From Ruegeria discodermiae (GTDB lineage: Bacteria > Pseudomonadota > Alphaproteobacteria > Rhodobacterales > Rhodobacteraceae): DNA of 64,000 bases. The translations under genes were made by a program, and so were the position numbers. The notes beneath the pieces were generated by a model, which did no database searches, had not been told where the DNA came from, and saw nothing but the letters and a program-made list of their open reading frames with translations. This document shows positions 39,832-56,610 of this stretch, piece after piece. The number at the start of each line of letters is the position of its first letter. Position 1 is the stretch's first letter. The stretch is taken from positions 310,001 through 374,000 of the forward strand of contig NZ_JAVAMO010000001.1 in NCBI RefSeq assembly GCF_030758345.1, in the 5' to 3' direction.

Positions 39832-41046
39832 ATGCCCTGTTTTTGTGACACTGCCGCCTTCAGCATGCCGGTGATGCCGGCGAGCAGCCTGTCGGTCATG
39901 GCGGTGCCGCCGCAGATGGTAAAGCTGCAAAGCCTGCTGGGGTTGCAGGCACAGGCGCAGGCCGACATCCGTGCGGATATGAAACTGGCTGCGATGCTGC
40001 CGGACATGAGCTCGGATGCATACCTGCGGGCGACCCTTGCGGCCAATGCACCGACGATCCAGTTGCCTGCCGTGCTGCCACCGGGCGGCGGCGGGATGCT
40101 GTCGATGATGGTGAAACTGGCGATGGTTGCGCCGGTCTTTCCGGTCACCAATCCGCGTATGCTGATGGCCTATATCCAGCAGGCCGTTGCGAGCCTGGCG
40201 GCGAGTGTCCTGCCGCAGGCGCAAGCCTTGCCAGCCGTGCAGATGCAGAACATGGCCATCGCTGCGCGGGTGACGCTGGCGCTGCGGGCGCAGGGCATCT
40301 GCCCGATGGCGCTGGCCAATGTGGATGCAAGCTTTGCCGCGCAGGCGGGTGTCGCCAATTCGCAAGGCACATTTTCATCGGCCATGGGGTTTGCCGCTAC
40401 GCTGCCGCGCTTGCGTATGCCGCCTTTTGCCCTGCCCGGACCAAAGCTGGATCTTGCCTATCAGATGGCAATGGCGGCGCAGGCGGCCAATGCGCCTGGG
40501 GCGATGGGGTTGCCCGCCATGTCCGATCCCAACCTGACAAAGGCGCTGCTGAGCCAGCTTGGCGTCTTGTCGACCGTCCCGGTGCCTGCCTTGCCGATCC
40601 CGCTTGATGAGTTGAAGGCCATGGCCGAGCAGGTGCAGGATCTGGCGACGATACAGGAAGCCTTCGGGCCGGATGCGCTGACGCCTGCCGGTGTTGCGCG
40701 GGTAAACGCGATGCTCAGCTATATGGCCAGTCTGAAGATACCGATGCCGCTGCCTGCGCAGTCGCTGCAGGTGCAGCTGGATGCCTTGCCCAAGATCGAG
40801 GATGTGACGCAAGGGGCGCAAGCCGCGAGTTCGGGGGCCATGAATATGGCGGCCTCGATGAGTGTTGCGCCGCCTGCTGTGCCGATTCTGCCCTTGCTGG
40901 AAGAACTCGCCGCAATGAAGGCAAAGCTGACGCCGGGATCGTTGGTGCCATGCGTCATCTGCAATGAACAGATTGGGGAGATTGCGGCTGCTATGGCAAA
41001 TAATCGGCTGCCAGCGCCGCCGCCGCTGCCTCAACTGCCGTTCTAG
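39832..41046 (+). CDS. Unknown Ala/Met/Leu/Pro-rich protein upstream of the GTA cluster
   Basis: A 404-residue protein with very uneven composition: Ala, Met, Leu, Pro and Gln make most of it, charged residues are scarce, and there is no clear signal peptide or long transmembrane helix. Cys residues occur at the two ends (MPCFCD at the start, LVPCVICNEQIG near the end) and once in the middle (QGICPM), a pattern that may bind a metal or form disulfides. The rest reads as short amphipathic Ala/Met helices joined by Pro-rich turns. It begins about 100 bp after mltG and ends 93 bp before the GTA -35 box. I do not recognise a family, and the start codon is not certain. Confidence 0.6.
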   Translation: MPCFCDTAAFSMPVMPASSLSVMAVPPQMVKLQSLLGLQAQAQADIRADMKLAAMLPDMSSDAYLRATLAANAPTIQLPAVLPPGGGGMLSMMVKLAMVAPVFPVTNPRMLMAYIQQAVASLAASVLPQAQALPAVQMQNMAIAARVTLALRAQGICPMALANVDASFAAQAGVANSQGTFSSAMGFAATLPRLRMPPFALPGPKLDLAYQMAMAAQAANAPGAMGLPAMSDPNLTKALLSQLGVLSTVPVPALPIPLDELKAMAEQVQDLATIQEAFGPDALTPAGVARVNAMLSYMASLKIPMPLPAQSLQVQLDALPKIEDVTQGAQAASSGAMNMAASMSVAPPAVPILPLLEELAAMKAKLTPGSLVPCVICNEQIGEIAAAMANNRLPAPPPLPQLPF

Positions 41047-41102
41047 CTGGCGTCTGATCGCGCGGCGCGTCTGGCAGGGTTTTCCTAATTTTTCGTATAT
41101 TT

Positions 41103-41120
41103 AACGGATGGTTATCCGTT
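41103..41120. promoter_or_regulatory. Inverted repeat upstream of the GTA promoter
   Basis: AACGGAT (41103-41109) and ATCCGTT (41114-41120) are perfect complements around GGTT. It is centred about 28 bp upstream of the -35 box at 41140, a good place for an activator such as the GafA/GafY type. Confidence 0.5.
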
Positions 41121-41139
41121 GCATCTGTTGCGGGATTCC

Positions 41140-41168
41140 TTGACTTTCCGCACGTTAACGCGTATAGG
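41140..41168 (+). promoter_or_regulatory. GTA cluster promoter (sigma-70-like)
   Basis: TTGACT (41140-41145), a 17-bp spacer and TATAGG (41163-41168). It is the best promoter-like match in the 230 bp before g1. The spacer contains GTTAAC, a sequence akin to a CtrA half-site. The predicted transcript start is near 41175, 100 bp before g1, and the leader folds into the terminator at 41197-41229. Confidence 0.6.
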
Positions 41169-41196
41169 TTGTGTCATGCTGGAAGACATGGGTGAG

Positions 41197-41229
41197 CGGC
41201 CTCGGGGATGACCCCGTTGGCCGTTTTTT
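41197..41229 (+). terminator. Intrinsic terminator in the GTA leader, before g1
   Basis: CGGCC-T-CGGGG, loop ATGA, CCCCG-TT-GGCCG, then TTTTTT. Ten GC pairs with a small internal bulge and six T. It lies 30-60 nt downstream of the predicted start of transcription and 47 bp before g1, so most transcripts should stop here unless an anti-termination factor acts. Confidence 0.8.
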
Positions 41230-41276
41230 CATTTCTCTCGTGCGGAGATCACTCACGCAAGAGGTCACGAGCAAAC

Positions 41277-41621
41277 ATGACTTTGATTACCCCGGAGGAG
41301 CGGATTTCGCGGACGGCAGACCTGTTGGCGTCGTTCGAGGAAACCATTCGCGGTCTGCGAAACGCGGCGGAAGACCTGCGCAGACAGATCGAGGCCGGGG
41401 AGGATGCAGATCTTGCTGGCGGAGCCAGGCAATTGGGACAAGTGAGCGGCCTGATCCGCGACTGTCAGAAAGTGGAGAAAAGTTTTGTCGAACTACATCA
41501 TGCCCAAACCGGAATTGCCCAGGGCGGGTACGCCCTCGACCTTGAGCAGGCTCGATTTGAGGTCGGGTGCCGACTGGCTCGCCTCCGCGCCTGCTGCCGT
41601 CAGGGAGGAGTTCCTGAGTGA
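41277..41621 (+). CDS. GTA g1, small terminase-like subunit
   Basis: A 114-residue protein in the position of RcGTA g1, which binds DNA and works with TerL in headful packaging of random host DNA. It begins MTLITPEERISRTADLLASF and has a coiled-coil-like helix pair (FEETIRGLRNAAEDLRRQIEAG, then ARQLGQVSGLIRDCQKVEKSFVE). The last 137 bp overlap the start of g2, as in other GTAs. The site before 41277 is weak; a longer frame to 41208 would run through the terminator hairpin and is unlikely. Confidence 0.8.
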   Translation: MTLITPEERISRTADLLASFEETIRGLRNAAEDLRRQIEAGEDADLAGGARQLGQVSGLIRDCQKVEKSFVELHHAQTGIAQGGYALDLEQARFEVGCRLARLRACCRQGGVPE

Positions 41622-42900
41622 GATCGGGGAGGGAGGGCTGTGCGCCCTCCCTTTCCTGTTCGAGTTCTGGGCGCTGCCGCATCAGTTGCCGCCCGAGGGC
41701 GACTGGCGCGCCTGGGTGGTGATGGGTGGCCGGGGTGCGGGTAAGACGCGTGCCGGGGCGGAATGGGTGCGGTCTATGGTCGAAGGCGCGCGGCCTTTGG
41801 ATGCCGGGCGGGCGCGCCGTGTGGCGCTGGTGGGCGAGACCTATGACCAGGTGCGCGATGTGATGATTTTTGGCGATAGCGGGATACTGGCCTGCTCGCC
41901 GCCGGATCGTCGCCCGAAATGGAAAGCCTCGGAACGCAGGCTGGTCTGGCCCAACGGGTCCGAGGCGCAGGCGTTTTCCGCCTCGGACCCCGAGGCTTTG
42001 CGCGGGCCGCAATTTGATGCGGCATGGGTCGATGAATTGGCGAAGTGGAAGAAGGCAGGCGAGACCTGGGATATGTTGCAATTTGCCTTGCGGCTGGGGG
42101 ATGCGCCGCGCGTCTGTGCAACAACCACGCCGCGCAATGTGACGGCGCTCAGGGATTTGCTGGCGCCCCCCTCGACCGTGGTGACCCATGCGCCGACTGA
42201 GGCGAATCGGGCCAATCTGGCGGACTCGTTCTTGGACGAAGTGCGGGCACGTTATGCCGGGACAAGGTTGGGACGGCAGGAGCTTGAGGGCGTTCTGATG
42301 GCCGATGTCGAGGGCGCGCTCTGGAGTTCTGAGATGCTGGAGGGCGCGCAGGTTGACGCCGCGCCTGAGCTTGACCGGGTGGTGGTGGCACTAGATCCGG
42401 CGGTGAGTTCAGGCGCGTCTGCGGATGAATGTGGGATCGTTGTGGTTGGCGCGCGGATACAGGGGCCGCCGCAGGATTGGCGGGCTTACGTGCTGGCGGA
42501 CCGGACGGTGCACGGAAAGGGACCGGCGGGCTGGGCGCAGGCGGCCATTGCGGCGATGGAAGAATTTGATGCGGAGCGGCTGGTGGCGGAGGTCAATCAG
42601 GGCGGGCAGCTTGTCGAAGAGGTTTTACGTCAGGTTGATCCGATGGTGCCGTTCAAGGCGGTGCATGCGGCGCGGGGCAAGGCGGCGCGGGCGGAGCCGG
42701 TGGCGGCGCTTTATGAGCAGGGCAAGGTGTTCCACCTGCGAGGGCTTGGTGCCTTGGAAGAGCAGATGTGCCTGATGACAAACGAGGGCTTCGAGGGACA
42801 GGGATCGCCGGACCGGGTGGATGCACTGGTCTGGGCCTTACATGAACTGATGATCGCATCAGCCGTGCACTACAAGCGACCACGGTTGCGGGTTTTGTAA
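41485..42900 (+). CDS. GTA g2, large terminase subunit
   Basis: A 471-residue DNA-packaging motor and nuclease. The N-terminal ATPase has Walker A GGRGAGKTR (residues 81-89) and an adenine/Walker B-like segment FDAAWVDELAKWK with the catalytic Glu. The C-terminal RNase H-like nuclease starts at VVVALDPAVSSG, continues with LVAEVNQGG and ends with DRVDALVWALHEL. The TTG at 41485 has GGAG 8 bp upstream, while the first ATG (41500) has none, so TTG is chosen. It is followed by an intrinsic terminator before the portal gene. Confidence 0.93.
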   Translation: MSNYIMPKPELPRAGTPSTLSRLDLRSGADWLASAPAAVREEFLSEIGEGGLCALPFLFEFWALPHQLPPEGDWRAWVVMGGRGAGKTRAGAEWVRSMVEGARPLDAGRARRVALVGETYDQVRDVMIFGDSGILACSPPDRRPKWKASERRLVWPNGSEAQAFSASDPEALRGPQFDAAWVDELAKWKKAGETWDMLQFALRLGDAPRVCATTTPRNVTALRDLLAPPSTVVTHAPTEANRANLADSFLDEVRARYAGTRLGRQELEGVLMADVEGALWSSEMLEGAQVDAAPELDRVVVALDPAVSSGASADECGIVVVGARIQGPPQDWRAYVLADRTVHGKGPAGWAQAAIAAMEEFDAERLVAEVNQGGQLVEEVLRQVDPMVPFKAVHAARGKAARAEPVAALYEQGKVFHLRGLGALEEQMCLMTNEGFEGQGSPDRVDALVWALHELMIASAVHYKRPRLRVL

Positions 42901-42936
42901 GGCTCTCGGCTGCGGCCGCTCTACATCCAACAAAAT

Positions 42937-42964
42937 GGCGCTCGGGTTTCGGGCGCCTTTTTTT
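42937..42964 (+). terminator. Intrinsic terminator between terL and the portal gene
   Basis: GGCGCTCG pairs with CGGGCGCC around GGTTT, followed by TTTTTTT. An 8-bp stem with one G-U pair and a 7-T tail, 36 bp after the terL stop and 120 bp before the portal ATG. All genes downstream have the same direction and no strong new promoter is visible in the gap, so this terminator must be bypassed for the capsid genes to be made from the upstream promoter. Confidence 0.8.
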
Positions 42965-43084
42965 GTGCCCCGTTGCGCGGGGGGCGGACGGTGGGTTCCG
43001 AGGCTTTCAACCTCTTTGCGCGATAACGGTGTCAACGAAGCGGTGAGGCGTCACTGGCGCGGTGGGCAATGAGGAGCATCACGG

Positions 43085-44263
43085 ATGGTATTTGATTTCT
43101 TGCGGCGCGGGGCAAAGGCGGATGTGCCGGAGGCCAAGGCAAGTGCGGCGGGGCCGGTGGTCACCTGGCACAGTGCAGGCCGCGTGGCGTGGAGCGCGCG
43201 CGACACCGCCTCGCTGACGCGGACCGGCTTTGCGGGCAATCCGGTGGGGTTCCGGTCGGTAAAGCTGATCGCTGAGGCGGCGTCGGCGCTGCCTTTGGTC
43301 CTGCAGGATGCGGAGCAGCGTTATGAGACCCATCCTCTGCTGTCGCTGATCCGACGCCCGAATGTGGCGCAGGGCAAGGCCGATCTGCTCGAGGCGCTTT
43401 TCGCGCAACTGCTCTTGTCGGGCAATGCTTATGTCGAGGCGGTGCAGGGCGAGGGCGGCTTGCCGCTTGAGCTGCATGTTCTGCGCTCGGATCGGGTCAG
43501 CGTGGTGCCGGGGCCGGATGGCTGGCCGGTGGCCTATGAATACGCGTTGGGCGGGCGCAAGCATCGGTTCGATGTCACGGGCGTCAATCCGACGATCTGC
43601 CATATCAAGAGTTTTCATCCGCAGGACGACCATTACGGTTTTGCGCCGATGCAGGCGGCAGCGATGGCGGTCGATGTGCATAACGCGGCCTCGCGCTGGT
43701 CCAAGGCGCTTCTGGACAATGCGGCGCGGCCTTCGGGGGCGCTGGTCTGGAAAGGATCGGACGGGCAGGGAGTCATGGCCGAGGATCAGTTCCGCCGCTT
43801 GAGCGACGAGATCGAGGCGAATTATCAGGGCGCGCGCAATGCCGGGCGACCAATGGTTCTGGAAGGGGGGCTCGATTGGAAACCGATGGGGTTCTCGCCC
43901 TCGGATATGGAGTTTCAGAAGACCAAAGAAGCCGCCGCCCGCGAGATCGCGCTGGCCTTTGGGGTGCCGCCGATGTTGCTGGGCATCCAGGGTGACGCGA
44001 CCTACTCGAACTATCAGGAGGCCAACCGGGCGTTTTACCGCCTGACCGTGCTGCCCCTGGTGACGCGGGTGGCGGCGGCGCTGTCGGAGTGGCTGTCCGG
44101 GTTCAGTGGCGAGGCGTTCGAGCTGAAGCCGGATCTGGATCAGGTTCCGGCGCTGGCCGCCGAGCGCGATGCGCAATGGGCGCGGGTGAACAATGCGGAC
44201 TTCCTAAGTGGGGCGGAGAAGCGGGCGTTACTGGGACTGCCCGCAGGAGAGGCGGATGGCTGA
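43085..44263 (+). CDS. GTA g3, portal protein (HK97 type)
   Basis: A 392-residue protein that forms the dodecameric DNA gate of the head. It shows the phage_portal pattern: GFAGNPVGFRSVKLIAEAASALPLVL near the start, LLLSGNAYVEAVQ, DDHYGFAPMQAAAMAVDVHNAASRW and the AFGVPPMLLGIQGDATYSNYQEANRAF motif typical of HK97-type portals. GAGGAG is placed 9 bp before the ATG. Its 3' end overlaps g3.5. Confidence 0.94.
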   Translation: MVFDFLRRGAKADVPEAKASAAGPVVTWHSAGRVAWSARDTASLTRTGFAGNPVGFRSVKLIAEAASALPLVLQDAEQRYETHPLLSLIRRPNVAQGKADLLEALFAQLLLSGNAYVEAVQGEGGLPLELHVLRSDRVSVVPGPDGWPVAYEYALGGRKHRFDVTGVNPTICHIKSFHPQDDHYGFAPMQAAAMAVDVHNAASRWSKALLDNAARPSGALVWKGSDGQGVMAEDQFRRLSDEIEANYQGARNAGRPMVLEGGLDWKPMGFSPSDMEFQKTKEAAAREIALAFGVPPMLLGIQGDATYSNYQEANRAFYRLTVLPLVTRVAAALSEWLSGFSGEAFELKPDLDQVPALAAERDAQWARVNNADFLSGAEKRALLGLPAGEADG

Positions 44264-44480
44264 TGGGCCGGGATACGCGCCGTTTGATTGCGCGCCGGGG
44301 CTGCGGCTGGCGGCGCATGAGAAGGTCTCGGCGATCCAGCATGAGCATCTGTGCCGGAGGCTGGACCAGATGGAAGAGCTGATGCAGCGGCTGGAAAAAC
44401 GGTTGTGGCTGACGGTCTACGGGGTCGCGGCGGTGATACTGGCGCAGGCGTTTCAATCGCTGGTGATTGCAACGCCATGA
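44256..44480 (+). CDS. GTA g3.5, small head-formation protein
   Basis: A 74-residue protein (MADGPGYAPFDCAPGLRLAAHE) in the place of RcGTA g3.5, a short gene needed for head formation. It has a central amphipathic helix (HLCRRLDQMEELMQRLEKRL) and a hydrophobic C-terminal segment (VYGVAAVILAQAF) that could enter a membrane. It overlaps the portal gene by 8 bp and has AGGAGAGG directly before the ATG. Confidence 0.85.
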   Translation: MADGPGYAPFDCAPGLRLAAHEKVSAIQHEHLCRRLDQMEELMQRLEKRLWLTVYGVAAVILAQAFQSLVIATP

Positions 44481-44511
44481 GTTTCAGGGATTTGCGAGGA
44501 GGTGTTCACGT

Positions 44512-45063
44512 ATGAGCACGGAGTTGGAACACAAGTTTGCGCGCTTCGGCGACGGTCTGACGGTCGGGCAGGACGCAACGATCCAGGGCTATGCCAGCCT
44601 GTTTGGGCAGGTGGATCAGGGCGGCGACCGGGTGATGCCGGGGGCTTATGCGCGGTCTCTGGAAAAGCTCGGTACGGCGGGCCAGCGGGTCAAGATGTTG
44701 TGGCAGCACGACCCGGCGCAGCCGATAGGTGTCTGGGACGAGGTGCGCGAGGATGAGCGCGGGCTGTGGGTCAAGGGCCGACTTCTGGAGGATACCCAAA
44801 AGGGCCGCGAAGCGGTGGCGCTGATCAAGGCGGGGGCCATTGACGGGCTGTCCATCGGCTACCGCACCACCAGGGCGCGCAAGGATGAGAGCGGCCATCG
44901 GCTGCTGACGGAACTGGAGCTTTGGGAAGTGTCCTTGGTGACCTTTCCGATGCTGCCCAGTGCGCGGGTGACGGCCAAGGGCATCACGCCCGACGAGGCC
45001 GAGGCCTGGCGCAGCATTGCCGATGTGCTGGAGGGCGCACGGCAGGACCTGGCGCAGCGATAG
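44512..45063 (+). CDS. GTA g4, HK97-type prohead protease
   Basis: A 183-residue serine protease that trims the capsid protein during head maturation. The S78/U35 pattern is intact: FARFGDGLTVGQDATIQGYASLFGQVDQGGDRVMPGAY, the His in KMLWQHDPAQPIGVW, the Ser in IDGLSIGYRT, and LWEVSLVTFPMLPSARV. The start has GAGGAGGTG upstream. It lies just before the capsid gene, as in HK97 and RcGTA. Confidence 0.94.
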   Translation: MSTELEHKFARFGDGLTVGQDATIQGYASLFGQVDQGGDRVMPGAYARSLEKLGTAGQRVKMLWQHDPAQPIGVWDEVREDERGLWVKGRLLEDTQKGREAVALIKAGAIDGLSIGYRTTRARKDESGHRLLTELELWEVSLVTFPMLPSARVTAKGITPDEAEAWRSIADVLEGARQDLAQR

Positions 45064-45097
45064 CGCCGCGACAAACAGCAGAAAAAGGGGTGTTCCC

Positions 45098-46276
45098 ATG
45101 AGCAAGACCGATGCGTCGGCCTTGACCGGCGAGGCTGTGCCGCCGGTGCAGGAGGTGAAGCGGGCGATGGCTGGCTTTGTCAGCGAGTTCAAAGGGTTCC
45201 GGGCGGAACTTGAAACCAAACTCAAACAAACAGAAGAGCGAGTGAGTATGCTGGATCGTAAATCTCAACTGGCGGGCCGTCCGCCTTTGGCGGGCTCCAT
45301 CGAGGCGGGTCAGCCGCATCAGAAAGCCTTTGGCGACTATCTGCGCTCGGGCGATGACGACGCGCTGCGCGGGCTGGAGATGGAGGCAAAGTCTCTGTCC
45401 ACCGCCGTCAGTGGCGATGGCGGGTTTCTGATCGACCCGCAGACCTCGGATGTGATCAAGTCTGTGCTGAAATCGACGGCCTCGATCCGCTCCGTTGCGT
45501 CGGTGGTGAATGTTGAGGCCAATTCCTACGACGTGCTGGTCGATCATTCCGATGTTGGCGCGGGCTGGGCCGCCGAGAACACGCCCTCGACCGAAACCGG
45601 CACTCCCAGCATCGACCGTATCTCGATCCCGCTGCATGAGCTGTCGGCGCTGCCGAAAGCTTCGCAGCGCCTGCTGGATGACAGCGCCTTCGAGATCGAG
45701 ACCTGGCTGGCAGGTCGCATCGCCGACAAGTTCGCCCGTGCCGAAGCCGGTGCCTTCATCACCGGTGACGGTGTCGACAAGCCGCGCGGCATCCTGGATC
45801 ACGCCAAGGTGGACAATGACGTCTGGGCCTGGAGCAATCTGGGCTATGTGCCGACCGGTGTTGATGGCGGTGTCGAGGCGGATGCGATTGTCGATATCGT
45901 CTATGCGCTGGGGGCGCGGTACCGCGCCAATGGCAGCTTTGTGATGAATTCGAAAACGGCCGGCACCGTGCGCAAGCTGAAGGATGCCGATGGCCGCTTC
46001 TTGTGGTCGGATGGTCTGGCGGCGGGTGAGCCTGCGCGCCTTATGGGCTATCCGGTGGTGATCGCCGAGGACATGCCTGATCCCGGTACAGACAGTTACG
46101 CGATTGCCTTTGGTGACTTTGCGGCGGGCTATACCATCGCCGAGCGTCCCGATCTGCGGGTGCTGCGCGACCCGTTCAGCGCCAAGCCGCATGTTCTGTT
46201 CTACGCCACCAAGCGCGTGGGCGGTGATGTGAGCGATTTTGCCGCGATCAAGTTGCTGAAATTCGGCACCGCGTAA
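45098..46276 (+). CDS. GTA g5, major capsid protein (HK97 fold)
   Basis: A 392-residue capsid precursor. Residues 1 to about 65 form the delta/scaffold domain with a coiled coil (FVSEFKGFRAELETKLKQTEERVSML), probably removed by the g4 protease. The HK97 fold follows: SGDGGFLIDPQTSDVIKSVLKSTASIRSVASV, EIETWLAGRIADKFARAEAGAFITGDG, SFVMNSKTAGTVRKLKDADGRFLW, and the P-domain GDFAAGYTIAERPDLRVLRDPF. A strong GC hairpin lies 14 bp after its stop. Confidence 0.95.
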   Translation: MSKTDASALTGEAVPPVQEVKRAMAGFVSEFKGFRAELETKLKQTEERVSMLDRKSQLAGRPPLAGSIEAGQPHQKAFGDYLRSGDDDALRGLEMEAKSLSTAVSGDGGFLIDPQTSDVIKSVLKSTASIRSVASVVNVEANSYDVLVDHSDVGAGWAAENTPSTETGTPSIDRISIPLHELSALPKASQRLLDDSAFEIETWLAGRIADKFARAEAGAFITGDGVDKPRGILDHAKVDNDVWAWSNLGYVPTGVDGGVEADAIVDIVYALGARYRANGSFVMNSKTAGTVRKLKDADGRFLWSDGLAAGEPARLMGYPVVIAEDMPDPGTDSYAIAFGDFAAGYTIAERPDLRVLRDPFSAKPHVLFYATKRVGGDVSDFAAIKLLKFGTA

Positions 46277-46290
46277 GCGGTACCGAGTGG

Positions 46291-46310
46291 CGGGCCGGGG
46301 AACCGGCCCG
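46291..46310 (+). other. Strong GC hairpin after the capsid gene
   Basis: CGGGCCGG (46291-46298) pairs fully with CCGGCCCG (46303-46310) around GGAA, with no T-tract. A second small hairpin CGTGAA/TTCACG follows at 46326-46342. In the 167-bp gap between the capsid and g6 they could protect the capsid mRNA end or mark a processing site. Confidence 0.55.
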
Positions 46311-46443
46311 TGCGCGGGCGTGCGCCGTGAAGGCCTTTCACGTTGTCTAGCTGCTCCCCTCCGTTCGAGCGACGTGGGGTGGTGCGCGTCCGCATCAATC
46401 AGGGAACGCGACCCGGAGGGGTCCGAGTTTGCGGAGTGTATCT

Positions 46444-47043
46444 ATGATGTTGACCGAAGAAACCTCGATCCCGGACGCGGCGCTGCCGGTGGATCAGTTC
46501 AAGGCGCATTTGCGGCTGGGCACCGGGTTTGCCGAGGGCGACCTGCAGGATGGTGTGCTGCGCGGGTTTCTGAGGGCTGCGATCGCGGCGATCGAAACGC
46601 GCACGGGCAAGGCTCTGATTTCGCGGTCGTTTTCGCTGGTCCTGAACCGCTGGCGCGATCCGGCGGGCGAGGTGCTGCCGGTGGCGCCGGTCACCGAGCT
46701 GCGCTCGGTGGTGCTGGAAAACGCGCAAGGTCACGAGAGCGTGTTGAATGCTGAGAGCTATTGGCTGGAGAAAGACAGCCAGCGGCCAAGGCTGAAACCT
46801 GTGGGCGGAGCACTGCCCCTGATCGCGCAGGGCGGCAGCGCGCGGGTTGTCCTGAATGCCGGAATGGCGGCGGATTGGGGCGGGTTGCCCGCTGACCTGG
46901 GTCAGGCGGTGCTGATGCTGGCGGCGCATTACTACGAGTACCGCCACGAGACTGCGCTGGGCGATGGCTGCATGCCCTTTGGCGTGACCAGCCTGATCCA
47001 GCGCTACTGCAGGATGCGTCTAGGTCTGGGAGCGGGGCAATGA
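46444..47043 (+). CDS. GTA g6, head-tail connector (gp6-like adaptor)
   Basis: A 199-residue protein in the place of RcGTA g6, which docks under the portal. It has the head-tail connector helices (LPVDQFKAHLRLGTGFAEGD, VLRGFLRAAIAAIETRTGKAL) and a C-terminal segment typical of the phiE125 gp8/gp6-like group (GMAADWGGLPADLGQAVLMLAAHYYEYR). It starts with ATGATG at 46444; GGAG is 6 bp upstream. Its stop overlaps the start of g7. Confidence 0.88.
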   Translation: MMLTEETSIPDAALPVDQFKAHLRLGTGFAEGDLQDGVLRGFLRAAIAAIETRTGKALISRSFSLVLNRWRDPAGEVLPVAPVTELRSVVLENAQGHESVLNAESYWLEKDSQRPRLKPVGGALPLIAQGGSARVVLNAGMAADWGGLPADLGQAVLMLAAHYYEYRHETALGDGCMPFGVTSLIQRYCRMRLGLGAGQ

Positions 47044-47378
47044 GCGCGCCGCGTCTCAATCGCAAGCTGGTGCTGGAAGCCCCCGCGCGGGTGGCGGACG
47101 GGGCTGGCGGGTTCAGCGAAAGCTGGCAGGCGCTGGGCACGCTCTGGGGCGAGGTTAAGGCGCGCAGCGGCACGGTGCGGTCGCAGGCCGGGGCTACGGT
47201 GTCGCGGGTCAATTACCGGATCGTGTTGCGGGCGGCACCCCAGGGTTCGTCGATGCGACCCGAACCGGATCAGCGGCTGCGCGAAGGCGACCGGATCTAT
47301 ACGATCCGGGCGGTGGCTGAACTGGGATCGGACGGGCGCTATCTGACCTGTTTTGCGGATGAGGAGGTGTCGGCATGA
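47040..47378 (+). CDS. GTA g7, head-tail adaptor/stopper
   Basis: A 112-residue protein of the phage head-tail joining family (LNRKLVLEAPARVADGAGGFSESWQALGTLWGEVKARSG; LREGDRIYTIRAVAELGSDGRYLTC), a small beta-barrel ring that closes the head and joins the tail. ATGA overlap with g6 and with g8. Confidence 0.9.
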   Translation: MSAPRLNRKLVLEAPARVADGAGGFSESWQALGTLWGEVKARSGTVRSQAGATVSRVNYRIVLRAAPQGSSMRPEPDQRLREGDRIYTIRAVAELGSDGRYLTCFADEEVSA

Positions 47379-47788
47379 GCTATGGCATGGCGGCGGCCTT
47401 GCAGGCGGCGGTGTTTCAACACCTGTCGGCGGATGTGGATATCAGCGCGCGGGTTGGCGATGCGATCTATGACGCGCTGCCGAGCGGCACGGTGCCCGAA
47501 ACCTACATTGCGCTGGGCCCGGAAGAGGCGCGGGACCGCTCGGATGTGAACGGGCGCGGTTCGGAGCACCGGTTCATCGTTTCGGTGATCTCGGAGGCGG
47601 CGGGGTTTGCCGCGGCCAAGGAACTGGCGGGCCTGATCGGGGACGCGTTGGACGATGCGCCCCTGGCGCTTGGCCGAGGACGGCTGGTGGGGCTTTGGTT
47701 CGAACGCGCAGTGGCGCGCCGGACCGGCTCGGGTGGGGCCGTGCGGCGTATCGATCTGCGTTTTCGCGCGCGCGTCGAAGACAACTAA
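47375..47788 (+). CDS. GTA g8, tail terminator (DUF3168)
   Basis: A 137-residue DUF3168 protein: AALQAAVFQHLSADVDISARVGDAIYDALP, YIALGPEEARDRSD, HRFIVSVISEAAGFAAAKELAGLIGDALDD. It caps the tail tube on the head side. Overlaps g7 by ATGA; g9 follows after 23 bp. Confidence 0.9.
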   Translation: MSYGMAAALQAAVFQHLSADVDISARVGDAIYDALPSGTVPETYIALGPEEARDRSDVNGRGSEHRFIVSVISEAAGFAAAKELAGLIGDALDDAPLALGRGRLVGLWFERAVARRTGSGGAVRRIDLRFRARVEDN

Positions 47789-47811
47789 ATTTCTGGATTT
47801 GGAGACACGAT

Positions 47812-48225
47812 ATGGGTGCTCAAAACGGCAAGGACCTGTTGGTCAAGGTGGATATGAATGGCGGTGGTCTGTTCGAGACCATTGCGGGGCTGCGCGCCAC
47901 GCGGGTGAGCTTCAACGCGGAAAGCGTGGATGTGACCAGCCTGGAAAGCCAGGGCGGCTGGCGTGAGCTGCTGTCGGGTGCGGGTGTGAAATCGGCGGCG
48001 ATCTCGGGGTCGGGCGTGTTCAAGGACGCCAACACCGATGAGCGGGCGCGGCAGTTGTTCTTTGACGGCGAGACGCCCGAGTTTCAGGTGATCATCCCCG
48101 ATTTCGGCATTGTCGAGGGGCCGTTTCAGGTGACCTCGATCGAATATGCGGGCAGCCATAACGGCGAGGCGACCTATGAGATGTCCATGGCCAGCGCCGG
48201 GGCGCTGAGCTTTACGGCGCTTTGA
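47812..48225 (+). CDS. GTA g9, major tail tube protein
   Basis: A 137-residue tail tube protein of the phage major tail family (MGAQNGKDLLVKVDMNGGGL, ETIAGLRATRVSFNAESVDVTSLES, AAISGSGVFKDANTDERARQLFFDG, YEMSMASAGALSFTAL). A GGAG lies 9 bp before the start, and this gene has its own small spacing, fitting high translation. Confidence 0.92.
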   Translation: MGAQNGKDLLVKVDMNGGGLFETIAGLRATRVSFNAESVDVTSLESQGGWRELLSGAGVKSAAISGSGVFKDANTDERARQLFFDGETPEFQVIIPDFGIVEGPFQVTSIEYAGSHNGEATYEMSMASAGALSFTAL

Positions 48226-48228
48226 GCC

Positions 48229-48549
48229 ATGGCCAATCCGTGGGCGGGCGAGGTGGCCCTTGTGATCGATGGCGAGCGGCGGGTGCTGAAGCTGACGCTG
48301 GGCGCGCTGGCCGAGCTTGAGGCCACGCTGGACAGCGGTTCGCTGGTGGATCTGGTGCAGCGGTTTGAAGGCGGGGCGTTTTCGGGTCGCGATGTGCTGG
48401 CGCTGATCGTGGCGGGGCTGCGCGGGGGCGGGGCGGATGTGACGGCCTCCGATCTGCTGCGCGCCGAGATTGCGGGCGGTCCCATGGGGGCGGCCAAGGC
48501 GGCGGCGGAGCTGATCGCACGCGCCTTCATGGTGCCGGGCGAGGCATGA
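48229..48549 (+). CDS. GTA g10, tail assembly chaperone-like protein
   Basis: A 106-residue protein of the GTA gp10 family (VALVIDGERRVLKLTLGALAELEATLDSG; RDVLALIVAGLRGGGADVTASDLL). By position between tube and tape measure genes it corresponds to the G-like part of a tail assembly chaperone. Starts 4 bp after g9. Confidence 0.88.
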   Translation: MANPWAGEVALVIDGERRVLKLTLGALAELEATLDSGSLVDLVQRFEGGAFSGRDVLALIVAGLRGGGADVTASDLLRAEIAGGPMGAAKAAAELIARAFMVPGEA

Positions 48550-48752
48550 GCGGGTTTGACTGGCCCGATCTTATGCGGGCCGGGATGCAGGGGTTGCGCC
48601 TGTCGCCGCAGGCGTTCTGGCAACTGACGCCTGCGGAATTGCGGTTGATGCTGGGGCAGGCGGCGGCGGGCCGGCCATTGGACCGGACAGGGCTGGACGC
48701 GCTGCTTGCGGCCTACCCGGATGCGGGAAATGGAGAGAATGATGACGGATAG
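48546..48752 (+). CDS. GTA g10.1, small tail assembly protein
   Basis: A 68-residue protein (FDWPDLMRAGMQGLRLSPQAFWQLTPAELRLMLGQAA), typical of the short gp10.1 tail assembly chaperone family. It overlaps g10 by ATGA and overlaps the beginning of g11, so the pair g10/g10.1 takes the place of the frameshifted G/GT pair of phages. Confidence 0.88.
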   Translation: MSGFDWPDLMRAGMQGLRLSPQAFWQLTPAELRLMLGQAAAGRPLDRTGLDALLAAYPDAGNGENDDG

Positions 48753-49404
48753 CGACGGAATTTCCGATCTGCAGGAAAGCGGTGAGGCGCTGGGCGAAAC
48801 GCTTGGCAGCACGGCGGCGATGGCCGCAGGTTTCGACACCGAGCTGCGACGGGTGCGGTCTGCGCTTGCCGCGACTGGCAAGGACGTCGAGACGCTGGAG
48901 CGGGGCATGTCGAGAGGGTTGCGCCGGGCTTTTGACGGGATGGTGTTTGACGGCATGAAACTGTCGGATGCGCTGTCGACGATCCGGGATTCGATGATCC
49001 AGACCGCTTATTCGGCGGCGATCAAGCCGGTGACCAACCATGTGGGTGGGTTGCTGGCCGATGGCGTGGGCAATCTGGTGTCAGGCATCTTTCCTTTTGC
49101 CGATGGGGCGGGGTTTGCCCAGGGGCGCGTGATGCCCTTTGCCAATGGCGGCGTGGTCTCGGGGCCGGTGAGCTTTCCGATGCGCGGTGGCATGGGGCTG
49201 ATGGGTGAGGCCGGGCCGGAGGCGATCATGCCGCTGGCGCGCGGTGCCGATGGCAAGCTGGGCGTGCGCAGCGCGGGCGGCGGGCGGCCGGTGAGTGTTG
49301 TCATGAACATCTCGACACCGGATGTGCAGGGCTTCCGGCGCAGCCAGGGCCAGATCGCGGCACAGATGGGCCGCGCACTGAGCCGGGGCAACCGCAATCG
49401 CTAG
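48742..49404 (+). CDS. GTA g11, tape measure protein
   Basis: A 220-residue tape measure protein, short as expected for the short RcGTA tail. It begins with helical, coiled-coil-like parts (ESGEALGETLGSTAAMAAGFDTELRRVRSALA; DVETLERGMSRGLRRAFDGM). It ends with the Gly-rich region typical of phage lambda family tape measure ends (FADGAGFAQGRVMPFANGGVVSGP; GMGLMGEAGPEAIMPLARGADGKLGV). The start overlaps the g10.1 stop; ATG at 48739 or 48742 are both possible. Confidence 0.9.
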   Translation: MTDSDGISDLQESGEALGETLGSTAAMAAGFDTELRRVRSALAATGKDVETLERGMSRGLRRAFDGMVFDGMKLSDALSTIRDSMIQTAYSAAIKPVTNHVGGLLADGVGNLVSGIFPFADGAGFAQGRVMPFANGGVVSGPVSFPMRGGMGLMGEAGPEAIMPLARGADGKLGVRSAGGGRPVSVVMNISTPDVQGFRRSQGQIAAQMGRALSRGNRNR

Positions 49405-49416
49405 GGGAGAGCAGGG

Positions 49417-50052
49417 ATGGTTAACTTTCACGAGGTACGGTTTCCCGCATCGCTGAGCTTTGGCTCGGTGGGCGGGCCCGAACGGCGGACCGATGTCGTC
49501 ACGCTGGCCAACGGGTTCGAGGAGCGCAACTCGCCCTGGGCCCATTCGCGCAGGCGTTATGATGCCGGGCTGGGCATGCGGTCGCTGGATGATGTCGAGA
49601 CGCTGATCGCCTTCTTCGAGGCGCGGCGCGGGCAGCTCTGCGGCTTTCGCTGGAAGGATTGGTCGGATTTCAAGTCGTCATCAGCCTCGGCTGAGGTGTC
49701 CCATGATGATCAGGTGATCGGTGTCGGGGATGGCGTGCTGCGAACGTTCCGGCTGACCAAGCTCTATCGCTCGGGCGAGTTCAGTTACGAACGGCCCATC
49801 AAGAAGCCGGTGCGTGGCAGCGTTCGGGTTGGCATCGAGCAGGACGAGCAGCGCGAAGGGGTGGATTATGAGATCGACGAAACCTCGGGGCTAGTGAGTT
49901 TTGTGGTGGCCCCCGCGGCAGAAACGCAGATCACCGCCGGGTTCGAGTTCGATGTGCCGGTGCGTTTTGATACCGACCGCATCCAGACCAGCGTGGCCAG
50001 CTTTCAGGCAGGCGATGTGCCGAATGTGCCAGTGGTGGAGGTCCGGGTGTGA
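49417..50052 (+). CDS. GTA g12, distal tail protein (DUF2460)
   Basis: A 211-residue DUF2460 protein: FHEVRFPASLSFGSVGGPERRTDVVTLANGFEERNSPWAHSRRRYDAG, AFFEARRGQLCGFRWKDWSDFKS, and GLVSFVVAPAAETQITAGFEFDVPVRFDTD. It corresponds to the distal tail ring of RcGTA. The stop overlaps the ATG of g13. Confidence 0.93.
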   Translation: MVNFHEVRFPASLSFGSVGGPERRTDVVTLANGFEERNSPWAHSRRRYDAGLGMRSLDDVETLIAFFEARRGQLCGFRWKDWSDFKSSSASAEVSHDDQVIGVGDGVLRTFRLTKLYRSGEFSYERPIKKPVRGSVRVGIEQDEQREGVDYEIDETSGLVSFVVAPAAETQITAGFEFDVPVRFDTDRIQTSVASFQAGDVPNVPVVEVRV

Positions 50053-50939
50053 TGGCGGGTCTGACGCAAGGGTTTCAAGACCATCTTGACAGCGGGCTGA
50101 CCACGCTGTGCCGCTGCTGGGCGATCCGGCGCAAGGACGGCGCGCGGCAGGGGTTCACCGACCATGATTGCGATCTGGAGTTCGACGGGCTGCTGTTCCG
50201 CGCCGATACCGGGTTGACGGCGGCGGCCCTGCAGCAGGGCACCGGGCTGTCGGTCGACAATTCCGAGGCGGTTGGCGCATTGAGCGACGCTTCGATCCGG
50301 GCCGAGGATATTGAGGCGGGCCGCTATGACGGCGCCGAAGTTACGGCCTGGTTGGTGAATTGGACGGACCCGCAGATGCGGCTGATGCAGTTTCGCGGCA
50401 CGCTGGGTGAGTTGCGCCAATCGGGCGGCGCCTTTCAGGCCGAACTGCGCGGGCTGACCGACCAGCTGAACCGGCCGATTGGGCGGGTTTATCAAAAGCC
50501 GTGTACAGCGGTTTTGGGTGATCGCGCTTGTACCTTCGATCTGGATAGGCCGGGATATGCGACCGAGCTGGAGGTGGTGGAGATCGACGAGGATGTCAGC
50601 CTGCGCTGGCCCGCGCTGCCCGGCTTTGCGCCGAGCTGGTTCGAGAGAGGCAGGCTGGATGTGCTGGACGGGGCGGCAAAGGGGCTCTGGGGTGCGATCA
50701 AGACCGATCGACTTCTTGATGGGCGCCGCAAGATCGAGCTGTGGGAGCCGTTGCGTGCGGTGGTCTCGCCTGGGGACCGGGTGCGGTTGACGGCGGGGTG
50801 TGACAAGCGGATGGAGACATGCCGGCTGAAATTCAACAACCTGCTCAACTTTCAGGGATTTCCGGACCTGCCGGGCGAGGATTGGCTGATGGCAGTGCCG
50901 AAACGGTCAGGCGTGAACCAAGGCGGGAGCCGCAGATGA
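50052..50939 (+). CDS. GTA g13, tail hub protein (DUF2163), possible Fe-S site
   Basis: A 295-residue DUF2163 protein that forms the hub of the baseplate. TLCRCWAIRRKDGARQGFTDHDCDLEF opens it. The C-terminal half has four Cys in two pairs, C-x9-C (KPCTAVLGDRACTF) and C-x6-C (AGCDKRMETCRL). This resembles the [4Fe-4S]-binding pattern of the lambda tail tip protein L. It is overlapped with g12 and with g14. Confidence 0.92.
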   Translation: MAGLTQGFQDHLDSGLTTLCRCWAIRRKDGARQGFTDHDCDLEFDGLLFRADTGLTAAALQQGTGLSVDNSEAVGALSDASIRAEDIEAGRYDGAEVTAWLVNWTDPQMRLMQFRGTLGELRQSGGAFQAELRGLTDQLNRPIGRVYQKPCTAVLGDRACTFDLDRPGYATELEVVEIDEDVSLRWPALPGFAPSWFERGRLDVLDGAAKGLWGAIKTDRLLDGRRKIELWEPLRAVVSPGDRVRLTAGCDKRMETCRLKFNNLLNFQGFPDLPGEDWLMAVPKRSGVNQGGSRR

Positions 50940-51382
50940 TCGCGCGTGGCTCGGAGATCGTGGAGGTGGCGCGGGGCTGGCTGGGCACGCCTTACCGCCA
51001 TCAGGCTGCCGCCCGTGGGGCAGGGTGCGATTGCCTCGGGCTGATCCGGGGCGTCTGGCGCGAGTGCTATGGTGCCGAGCCCGAGGCCGCCCCGGCCTAT
51101 AGCATGGACTGGTCCGAACCCCAGGGCGAGGAACGGATGTGGGCGGCGGCGCGCCGTCATCTGATCCCGTGCGATGCGGGGCCATGGCGGCCCGGTGACA
51201 TGTTGCTGTTCCGAATGCGGTCGGGGTCGGTGGCCAAACATGTAGGCATCCTGTCCGAGGTGGGGGAGGTGCCCCGCTTCATCCATTCCTATTCGGGGCA
51301 TGGGGTGGTGGAGAGCGCGTTGAGCGCGCCCTGGCGGCGCAAGGTGGTTGCCCGGTTTGAATTTCCTGTGGAGGTGAAGTGA
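50936..51382 (+). CDS. GTA g14, NlpC/P60 cell-wall peptidase
   Basis: A 148-residue NlpC/P60-type Cys peptidase of the tail tip. VARGWLGTPYRHQAAARGAGCDCLGLIRGVW contains the catalytic Cys (C33 in GCDCLGL), SVAKHVGILSE the His and FIHSYSGHGVV the following residue region. It should open peptidoglycan for DNA entry into the recipient. ATGA overlaps on both sides. Confidence 0.93.
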   Translation: MIARGSEIVEVARGWLGTPYRHQAAARGAGCDCLGLIRGVWRECYGAEPEAAPAYSMDWSEPQGEERMWAAARRHLIPCDAGPWRPGDMLLFRMRSGSVAKHVGILSEVGEVPRFIHSYSGHGVVESALSAPWRRKVVARFEFPVEVK

Positions 51383-54300
51383 TGGCGACGATCGTCCTTT
51401 CTGCGGCCGGAGCGGCCATTGGCGGGTCCATCGGGGGCACCTTTACGGGTCTGTCCTCGGTGGCGATTGGGCGCGCGGTTGGCGCAACGGTGGGCAGGCT
51501 CATCGACAACCGTTTGCTGGGGCAGGGTGCCGAGCCGGTCGAAACCGGCAAGGTGGACCGGTTCCGCCTGACCCATTCGGGTGAGGGCGCGGCGGTTTCT
51601 CGGCTGCATGGCAGGATGCGGATTGCCGGGCAGATGATCTGGGCGTCGCAGTTCCGCGAACACGTCAGCCGCAGCGGTGGCGGAGGGGGCGGCAAGGGTG
51701 CGCCCAAGCCGCCGGAGCCGGAAGTGACCCAATACAGTTACACGGTGTCTGTGGCACTGGCGCTTTGCGAAGGAGAGATCGCGTCGGTGGGGCGTGTCTG
51801 GGCCGATGGTGAAGAGATCGAACATGACCGGCTGAACATGCGAGTCTATACCGGCAGTGCCGATCAATTGCCCGATCCGACCATGGAGGCAATTGAGGGC
51901 ACCGGCGCGGTCCCCGCCTATCGCGGCACCGCCTATGTGGTGATGGAGGATCTGCCGCTGGGTCAGTTCGGCAACCGGGTGCCGCAATTCTCGTTCGAGG
52001 TGGTCAGACCGGCGCAGGAAGAGGCCGAGGATTCCCGAGACGATCTGGGGCGGATCGTGCGCGCCGTGGCGATCGTGCCAGGGACCGGGGAATACTCGCT
52101 GGCGACCAGGCAGGTCAATTACAGCAAGGGCTGGGGGCAGCATTGGGCGGCAAATGTTCACTCGCCGACCGGCGGGACCGATTTCGTGCAATCCATGAAA
52201 GCCCTGCGCGAAGAGGTTCCGGGATGTGATGCCGCCTCGCTGGTAGTGTCCTGGTTCGGGGGCGATTTGCGTTGCGGAGAATGCCGGATCGAACCCAAGA
52301 TCGAGCGGCGCGAGATCGATGGCGCCAACATGCCCTGGCGGGTGTCGGGCGCGGGCCGCTCCGGCGTGGCCGAGGTGCCGCGCAAGGATGGCGAGCCGAT
52401 CTATGGTGGTACCCCGGCAGATGACTCGGTGGTCGAGGCGATCCGGCATCTGCAGGCGCAGGGCAAGCGGGTGATGTTCTATCCCTTCATCCTGATGGAT
52501 CAGGATGAAAACAACACGCTGCCCGATCCCTGGAGCGGGGCCGAGGCCCAGCCGGTTCTGCCTTGGCGTGGGCGGATCACGCTCAGCGTTGCGCCGGGGT
52601 GGATGGGCAGCCCGGACAAGACGGCGGCGGCGGATGACGAGGTGGCGGCGTTTTTCGGCACCGCGCAGAGGTCACATTTCCAGATCAGCTCGGGCCGAGT
52701 GTCCTATAGCGGTCCGCAAGAGTGGAGCTTTCGCCGCTTCATCCTGCATTACGCCGCACTCTGCGCGGCGGCGGGAGGTGTATCGGCCTTCTGCATCGGC
52801 TCGGAAATGCGGGCGTTGACGCAGATCCGGGGGGCGAATGGCTTTCCGGCGGTTGACGCGCTGCGCCAGTTGGCGGCGGAGGTGCGCGACATTCTCGGGC
52901 CGGATACCAAGATCAGTTATGCGGCGGATTGGTCGGAATATTTTGGCTATCAGCCCGGCGATGCGCCCGGCGACCGGTATTTCCATCTGGACCCGCTTTG
53001 GGCGGATGAGAATATCGATTTCATCGGCATAGACAATTACATGCCGGTGGCCGATTGGCGCGATGAGGAGGATCATCTGGACGCGCAGGCCGGTATCAAC
53101 TCGATCTACGATATCGACTATCTGCGCTCGAATATCGAGGGCGGCGAGGGGTTTGACTGGTATTATGCCTCATCCGAGGCGCGCGCGGCGCAGGTTCGCA
53201 CCCCGATCACCGATGGCGATCATGACGAGCCGTGGGTCTGGCGCTATAAGGACCTGCGCAACTGGTGGTCGCAGCGGCATTACGAGCGGATCGGTGGGGT
53301 GCGCCAAGCGCTGCCGACCGATTGGGTGCCGGGGTCAAAGCCGTTCTGGTTCACCGAACTGGGTTGCGCGGCCATCGACAAGGGGTCGAACCAGCCCAAC
53401 AAGTTTCTGGACCCGAAATCCTCGGAATCCCGGTTGCCGCACCATTCTAACGGGCTGCGCGATGACTTCGTGCAGATGCAGTATCTGAAGGCGGTTCTTG
53501 GCTATTGGACGCAGCCTCAGAACAATCCGGTGGCAAGCGAATATGACGGGCGCATGATCGACATGGCCAATGCCTATGTCTGGGCCTGGGACGCGCGGCC
53601 TTTTCCCGCCTTTCCGAACAATCGCGAACAATGGAGCGATGGGAGCAATTATGCGCGCGGGCATTGGTTGACTGGGCGGGTGAGCAACCGGTCGCTGGCC
53701 TCGGTCGTGGCCGAGATCTGTCGTGCCTCCGATCTGGTGGACAATCTGGATGTCTCGGAACTCTGGGGTGTGGTGCGCGGCTATGTGCTGGATCAGGTCG
53801 AAGATGCGCGCGCGGCCCTGCAACCACTGATGCTGCGCTATGGCTTTGATGCGATTGAGCGCGACGGCAGGCTGGTCTTTCGCCTGCGCGATGGCAAGCA
53901 GGCCATCGAAATCCTGCCCGACCAGTTTGCCGAGAGTCGCGAGCTGGACGGGGATGTCGAGCTGCGCCGCGAGGCGGATGTGGACATGACCGGGCGCGTG
54001 CGGCTGCGCTTCGTACAGTCAGGCGGCGATTTCGATGCGATCTCGGAAGAGGCGATCTTGCCCGATGACGCGACCCATGCGGTGGCGACGAGCGAGATTC
54101 CCCTGGCCATGACCCGCGCCGAGGGACGGCAGACGGTCGAACGCTGGCTGGCCGAGGCGCGGGTGTCACGCGACACGGCCCGGTTTGCTCTGCCGCCCTC
54201 GAAATTAGCGCTGGGCGCGGGCGATGTGGTGCAATTGCCCTCGTTGGATGGCAAAACGGCGCGGTATCGCGTGGACCGGGTGGAACAGACCGATTTGCAA

Positions 54301-56576: not shown

Positions 56577-56610
56577 GAAAACGCCGCCGGAATTCGGCGG
56601 CGTTTTTTTG
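56577..56610. terminator. Bidirectional terminator between cysE and pdhC
   Basis: ACGCCGCCG (56581-56589) pairs with CGGCGGCGT (56595-56603) around GAATT, with TTTTTT on the plus side and, on the minus side, a TTTTCATTTTTT tail. It serves both convergent genes. Confidence 0.9.

Follow-up and report, generated by a model that had tools for sequence, protein, structure and literature searches.

In the window, by which we mean the whole stretch of 64,000 nucleotides of Ruegeria discodermiae DNA that was analysed, the main promoter of a GTA cluster is followed, before the first gene, by a hairpin and T-run that, judged by their sequence, have the form of an intrinsic terminator and not merely that of a hairpin, and that are conserved in the leaders of related clusters. 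We propose that transcription from this promoter is stopped at the leader terminator and that the stop is relieved by anti-termination dependent on the regulator GafA, and we put the probability of this reading at about two in three. Termination in the cell and its relief by GafA are what we infer from the architecture of the locus and from the action of GafZ in Caulobacter. The retention of a folded, terminator-bearing leader in many genera suggests that a dedicated protein must carry the polymerase through it before particles can be produced.

The GTA cluster and its promoter

The cluster is RcGTA-like: terminase, portal, protease, capsid, head-tail and tail genes are followed by the gene of a GTA_TIM protein and then by cysE (Table 1). 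The product of the first gene, g1, is 96.5% identical in the same-genus locus L003, 64-68% identical in L004 and L005 and more weakly so elsewhere, and g1 overlaps g2. The comparisons reported here use a set of 110 loci (L001 and L003 to L111) composed of the window locus and of 29 plus 80 loci from large-terminase searches. Of 61 genomes searched, 45 had a match, and the best of these supplied the 29 loci; the 80 are the best of 591 relatives. One member of the set, L031, belongs to a different family within the class. Since the set is made up of the loci with the closest terminases, the leader may be less frequent among more distant ones.

Table 1. Coordinates of the promoter, leader and gene features of the GTA cluster (positions in the window; D, terminator score)
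Feature	Position	Strand	Remarks
Inverted repeat AACGGAT-GGTT-ATCCGTT	41103-41120		perfect, 7-bp arms, about 20 bp 5' of the -35
-35 hexamer TTGACT	41140-41145	+	TTGAC exact in 86 of 87 leaders
Spacer motif CGCACGTT	41149-41156	+	CGNRCGNT in the family consensus; candidate target of the C-terminal domain of GafA
-10 hexamer TATAGG	41163-41168	+	17 nt after the -35; T 91% and A 97% at positions 1-2
Conserved transcript start CATGCTGGAAGACATGGGT	41175-41193	+	start inferred at A41176
P1a, 5' arm	41185-41190	+	pairs with 41230-41235; 5 of 6 pairs in the window
Terminator-like hairpin P1	41197-41223	+	D 49.2
Terminator T-run, six T	41224-41229	+	T conserved among 85 leaders
P1a, 3' arm CATTTC	41230-41235	+	partner of 41185-41190
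Stem-loop P2, CTCGTGC/GCAAGAG	41237-41263	+	6 of 7 pairs in the window; just 5' of g1
g1, GTA small terminase-like protein	41277-41621	+	114 aa; no Pfam family
g2, large terminase (TerL) ORF	41485-42900	+	PF03237, PF17289
Second predicted intrinsic terminator, terL-portal gap	42937-42964	+	seven T; D 50.8
Remaining GTA cluster, portal through GTA_TIM protein	43085-55323	+	ordered genes
Predicted terminator after cysE, cluster end	56582-56609	+	D 63.9

Candidate terminators were ranked by a score D of the d'Aubenton-Carafa type, the values of which are meaningful only against controls. From the promoter to the end of the cluster, three elements have D above 20: those at 41197 and 42937, and one at 41631 that is followed by no more than three T. 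The terminator of the cluster end begins at 56582. The element at 41631-41651 is a GC-rich hairpin, GGGAGGGC-TGTGC-GCCCTCCC followed by TTT, that lies in coding sequence near the overlap of g1 and g2. The predicted terminator in the gap between terL and the portal gene has D > 0 in 33 and D > 20 in 27 of the 108 loci examined (two of the 110 could not be scored), and it is absent in R. capsulatus.

The sequence-only reading had placed a promoter, TTGACT-17-TATAGG, ahead of a hairpin with six T (41197-41229), and both were found where it had put them, the hairpin reading CGGCC-T-CGGGG-ATGA-CCCCG-TT-GGCCG, with 47 nt between the T-run and the g1 ATG at 41277. The promoter hexamers alone are not above chance, the totals of a consensus scan of the window being equal to those of shuffles, and the scan listed neither the GTA promoter nor the leader hairpin; the -10 ends in G and the bulges of the hairpin are unequal. 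Since the scan missed both elements, folding, a covariance model and conservation were used instead. It is from conservation that the identification of this sequence as the GTA promoter gains its weight: where TTGAC is exact (86 of the 87 loci with a leader) it lies 32-35 nt 5' of the leader, and the spacer of the 87 leader loci carries the conserved motif CGNRCGNTC, the core of which is C in 84%, G in 94%, C in 92% and G in 84% of the 85 distinct promoters. The uniqueness of the spacer pattern says little as evidence. A loose form of the promoter pattern has a single match in the genome of the window, the GTA promoter, and the backward control also has one match there; across 37 genomes the pattern is not enriched, with 18 matches versus 19 for the backward control.

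The perfect inverted repeat that the sequence-only reading had seen upstream of the promoter is present in the window, but it is not conserved in relatives, being absent even from the same-genus locus L003, and as an operator it is ruled out as a general element. Perfect 6-bp repeats within 60 bp 5' of the -35 were found in 20 of 86 loci versus 7 of 86 control stretches, which suggests that repeats are somewhat enriched in this region, partly as terminators of upstream genes. The repeat in the window is probably not part of the GTA control system. Directly 5' of the GTA promoter, at 39832-41046, there is a 404-aa ORF with no Pfam or NCBIfam match.

A conserved leader with the form of a terminator

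Upstream of g1 the loci have in common a leader that reads TTGACTTTGCGNACGSTC..GTA.., then CAnGCTRGAAGAARTGGGC, a variable hairpin, TTTTT, C(A/G)TTTC and CTCGTGCGGA...GCATGAG. A covariance model, R1, was made from 27 leaders chosen by eye, with the P1 stem alone as its structure. The first search with R1 covered 100 loci and, at E <= 0.05, placed the leader where it was expected in 80 of them, four additional rows being opposite-strand or second matches. A second search of 94 loci, from which 16 without a match in the first were left out, identified it in 87 loci at E <= 0.005, all of them 228-376 nt 5' of terL. The leader is therefore present 5' of g1 in 87 of the 110 best-matching terminase loci, with L100 in addition at E 0.02.

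The sequence-only reading had made its case depend on the hairpin being conserved, and the hairpin is kept, with covariation, among the relatives. The segment 41190-41232 of the window folds at -25.3 kcal/mol (z -4.24), and none of 200 shuffles folds as well. When P1 and the lower stem P1a are taken together in the 87-row alignment (85 distinct leaders), 93.8% of the cells are paired versus 78.7% in shuffles and two-sided changes are found at 16 of the 17 pairs (0 of 500 shuffles), the P1 part of this alignment leaning to the covariance model that built it. The MAFFT alignment A4 of 27 leaders, which was not fitted to the structure, gives 91.6% paired cells and two-sided changes at 10 of 17 pairs, again with 0 of 500 shuffles. 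We take these compensatory changes as signs of selection maintaining the P1 stem.

The features of a terminator are found together with this stem. Beside 59 different P1 5' arms in the 85 leaders there is a near-invariant T-run, with T in 80-82 of 85 at positions 1-4 and in 70 of 85 at position 5. D is above zero in 83 of the 87 leaders, with a median of 43.45 among the 86 that have a stem-loop and T tail. Among the controls it is above zero in 5 of 174 dinucleotide shuffles, where it never exceeds 20, and in none of 261 coding windows; the stem criteria differ slightly between the scoring of the 87 leaders and that of the controls and remaining loci. The four leaders without a terminator-like hairpin are L004, L007, L041 and L084, and three of the 23 remaining loci (L026, L076 and L100) have such a hairpin at the place of the leader, with D of 31-40. 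The terminator-like leader hairpin (D > 0) is thus found in 86 of the 110 best-matching terminase loci and is missing from 24. The hairpin of L057 has a D slightly below zero.

The beginning of the transcript is also conserved. Its columns 2, 4, 5 and 6 are A in 84, G in 85, C in 84 and T in 85 of the 85 leaders, and the sequence CAnGCTRG at the start of the leader is conserved and unpaired. The distance to the -10 and the RNA-seq described in the text available for R. capsulatus (PMC6363796) point to A41176 as the start. A leader peptide beginning at the ATG at 41176 was considered and rejected, because the T of this codon is T in just 55 of 85 leaders.

Position of the hairpin relative to the R. 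capsulatus start site

In R. capsulatus SP108 (L074), the positions counted back from the g1 ATG are -129 for the -35, -106 for the -10, -74 for the start of the hairpin and -51 for that of the T-run. In R. capsulatus, the fragment 76-125 upstream of g1 was reported to be bound by GafA, and the text of that paper, as far as it was available, gives RNA-seq coverage in support of a start within this fragment (Fogg 2019, PMC6363796); the distances come from another strain and are applied here to SP108. Placed in this way, the fragment comprises the end of the -35, the spacer motif, the -10, the start and the conserved first bases, and it stops just 5' of the hairpin. Sequence comparison through SP108 indicates that the window promoter is homologous to this GafA-bound fragment. 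Because the hairpin follows the published start and precedes g1, GTA transcripts of R. capsulatus must cross it, and a conserved terminator 3' of the promoter must be passed if the cluster is to be expressed. GafA has been published as an activator that binds the promoter and contacts the omega subunit (PMC6363796, PMC9638019); the word "terminator" does not occur in the available text of the 2019 paper (PMC6363796), nor do words beginning with "terminat-" in that of the 2022 paper (PMC9638019).

GafA and the proposed mechanism

A search of the genome for a GafA homologue, as the sequence-only reading had proposed, found one at L002:1468-2592 on the minus strand, with 374 aa. It contains DUF6456 at 229-364 (E 2.2e-61) and HTH_38 at 26-50 (E 1.4e-4, which does not reach the Pfam cut-off). 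We take DUF6456 to be the C-terminal domain of GafA and GafZ, and a PF20057 match in Caulobacter vibrioides among 14 control genomes agrees with this assignment. PF20057 was found in 224 of 248 genomes of the family. Strong leader matches are present in 142 of the 224 genomes with PF20057 and in 2 of the 24 without it (G139 and G221; Fisher p 1.4e-7), four of these 24 being inferred from missing entries in the match listing. This association is confounded with the possession of a GTA: any component of a GTA would show it, and it is no specific sign of regulation. Among the genomes whose loci have no terminator-like leader, G026 and G021 have GafA ORFs (381 and 397 aa) and G003 has a PF20057 match, and these are not accounted for by the model. 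In R. capsulatus, GafA is published to bind its own promoter and the lysis cassette and tspA promoters too, as far as the available text goes; set against these several bound promoters, the genome of the window has one strong match to the leader model. For Caulobacter GafZ, the available text likewise gives one target (PMC11150451).

GafA is the obvious candidate for anti-termination because its relative GafZ acts in this way in Caulobacter and because Tran and Le suggest the same for GafA. In the mechanism that we propose, the GafZ-like C-terminal domain of GafA would bind the region of the spacer and the start. Polymerase starting at about A41176 would meet P1 and the T-run, which end about 54 nt later, and without GafA most of the polymerase would halt there, with the consequence that neither leaky initiation nor read-through from upstream would switch the cluster on. 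Once GafA has joined the polymerase, the leader terminator would be passed, and, if Caulobacter GafZ is a guide, the GafA-modified polymerase would in this genome also pass the second terminator after terL. Promoter activation and anti-termination would be two locks held by a single protein, GafA. A leader terminator of this kind would help explain the silence of a lethal operon in cells, and the leader would mark those GTA clusters that are still under regulatory selection.

Other possible roles of the leader

Termination does not explain P1a or the conserved unpaired first bases. Among the 85 distinct leaders, P1a is 92.8% paired versus 88.0% in shuffles (0 of 500) and at most 71.4% when slid, and two-sided changes are found at 5 of its 6 pairs, a number equalled by 6 of 500 shuffles; the pairing of P1a was left out of the structure of the covariance model. 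The many G-U pairs of P1a indicate an RNA and not a DNA palindrome, and since P1a encloses the T-run and requires read-through RNA to form, termination would not be the only role of the leader. The consensus of P2 before g1 is CTCGTGCGGA...GCATGAG. In 38 of the 87 loci, chosen by eye, 91.7% of the P2 cells are paired versus 87.1% in shuffles, and the two-sided changes are matched by 44 of 500 shuffles. The P2 arms form 6.20 of 7 pairs versus 5.17 with shuffled downstream sequence (maximum 5.35 in 200), and in a swap among variant arms the own arm gave 5.49 pairs, the consensus arm 5.69 and swapped arms a mean of 5.30 and a maximum of 5.63. P2 appears to be a conserved sequence able to pair, in which it is mainly the sequence that is conserved.

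It is conceivable, but doubtful, that the leader represents a new class of cis-acting anti-termination RNA, similar to nut or put, or that the released leader of about 54 nt is a small RNA. In the nut- or put-like case, GafA would load at the spacer motif, and the emerging leader, with its conserved 5' tag, P1a and P2, would belong to the complex that makes the polymerase resistant; if true, this would be an RNA class without an Rfam entry that occurs in numerous genera carrying GTAs within a single family.

It is unlikely that the leader is a structured 5' UTR with a post-transcriptional job, such as protection of the mRNA, processing or translation of g1, in which the T-run is incidental or a weak brake. 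Such a function would agree with the pairing of P1a across the T-run, which includes G-U pairs and covariation and requires read-through RNA, with the conservation of P2 5' of g1 and with the folding of the full leader as one long hairpin plus P2. However, the T-run, which mostly faces G and A, is near-invariant: opposite G, a change from T to C would keep the pairing, yet it is rare. The terminator scores, far above those of the controls, likewise favor a terminator.

We consider it improbable that the hairpin is an insulator against read-through from upstream, the relevant GTA promoter being downstream of it or strong enough to outrun it. The window has no other terminator with D > 5 between the upstream ORF and the promoter, as an insulator would suggest, but the R. 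capsulatus start is 5' of the hairpin in the available text (PMC6363796), and a conserved promoter is found 5' of the hairpin in 86 of 87 loci. Moreover, in 7 of 87 loci, R. capsulatus included, a separate terminator (D > 20) precedes the promoter, so that in these loci the leader hairpin is not the terminator of the upstream gene. There is similarly little to be said for an attenuator that senses a ligand or temperature and in which an alternative fold, and not GafA, releases the terminator: the unpaired CAnGCTRG and P2 are sequence free for another fold, but RNAalifold and stepwise folding gave a single nested fold for the conserved part, and Rfam gave no match. It is hardly credible that the phage late-promoter parts are a relic kept by descent without present function, since compensatory changes and a T-run that stays constant across many genera speak for selection, even if the 24 of 110 best-matching loci without a terminator-like leader hairpin still carry a terminase gene.

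Comparison with known systems

In the lambda Q, phage 21 Q and AlpA systems, a promoter with the site of the protein in or beside it is followed by a terminator before the first gene, and the GTA leader resembles them in having a predicted, conserved intrinsic terminator between the start site and the first gene. It may differ from them with respect to a -10-like pause element, for which the beginning of the transcript offers no clear candidate; GCTRGAAG near the start is conserved, but at the position of the would-be key -10 adenine 47 of 85 leaders have A and 38 have G. Expression of the Bartonella BaGTA reportedly depends on anti-termination as well, going by the title of a 2025 report by Korotaev, which would make it likewise a GTA with anti-termination-dependent expression. 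The predicted structures of GafZ are reported not to resemble proteins of the Q or AlpA type (PMC11150451).

For the GafY/GafZ pair of Caulobacter crescentus, the available text describes anti-termination at the GTA terminator as shown for GafZ and as suggested for GafA (Tran and Le 2024, PMC11150451). That system and the one described here have in common a GTA main promoter, a homologous regulator, an element between the -10 and the -35 and a terminator to be passed. They differ in the terminator, which according to the same text consists in Caulobacter of three 150-bp repeats 3' of the first gene (PMC11150451) and here of one predicted hairpin in the 5' UTR and another that follows terL, in the sequence of the spacer motif, and in the activators, which are two proteins in Caulobacter and one fused protein here. 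A repeat terminator of the Caulobacter type was not found directly after the first gene of the window, where g1 and g2 overlap and the predicted terminators are in the leader and after g2; conversely, the available passages of the Caulobacter paper (PMC11150451) describe no leader terminator.

The GTA of R. capsulatus has the same promoter and leader, and SP108 (L074) carries the hairpin. To the promoter binding and omega contact described in the available text of the R. capsulatus papers (PMC6363796, PMC9638019), our analysis adds the predicted leader terminator, through which the remark made by Tran and Le 2024 (PMC11150451) becomes a prediction that can be placed exactly in a model organism. 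The predicted site in R. capsulatus is a hairpin of 23 nt, followed by six T, that comes after the published start and before the g1 codon. GTA anti-termination is already known in Caulobacter, and what we regard as new is the conserved leader terminator and structured leader RNA of Rhodobacterales GTAs, which was not found in Rfam or in the literature searched. That literature, as far as its text was available and with most subscription papers outside its scope, mentions neither a terminator nor a structured RNA for the leaders of Rhodobacterales GTAs, and in the RNA-discovery papers searched the word terminase was not found. Rfam 15 gave no match to the leader in window positions 40500-43200, its two weak matches (E 4.1 and 4.3) being elsewhere. 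The leader is a structured RNA that could be proposed as a new family.

Distribution of the leader

The survey of the family comprised 248 genomes from 247 genera. The leader model matched at E <= 0.1 in 189 of these genomes and at E <= 1e-4 in 144 (143 genera), the latter number being the 189 minus 45 listed above E 1e-4. The search was run with stricter filters, by which weak matches are lost. In the 19 strong-leader genomes with a known terminase position, all 19 matches are just 5' of terL and on the same strand. A sample of 289 genomes of the class gave matches at E <= 1e-4 in only two, both of them members of the family, and at E 3e-4 to 7e-4 in three genomes of other families; two more listed members of the family in this sample have no leader match.

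In the genome of the window the sole strong match to the model is the leader of the window, with 80.7 bits, and the next match has 28 bits. This second match (L113) was rejected as a leader because it lies between two ORFs and looks like an ordinary terminator; the second of these ORFs, judged by eye, presumably resembles carbonic anhydrase. L004 (G006), from a close relative with 79% terminase identity, has no recognizable -35 and no T-run, while P2 and g1 are conserved, and regulatory decay of its GTA cluster is possible. Five loci (L010, L012, L018, L067 and L111) share a sequence like CATACAGGCAA..AAGGTATCGAGC 5' of g1; all of them except L067 are without the usual leader, although a GafA match is present in G026, G021 and G003, the genomes of L010, L012 and L018.
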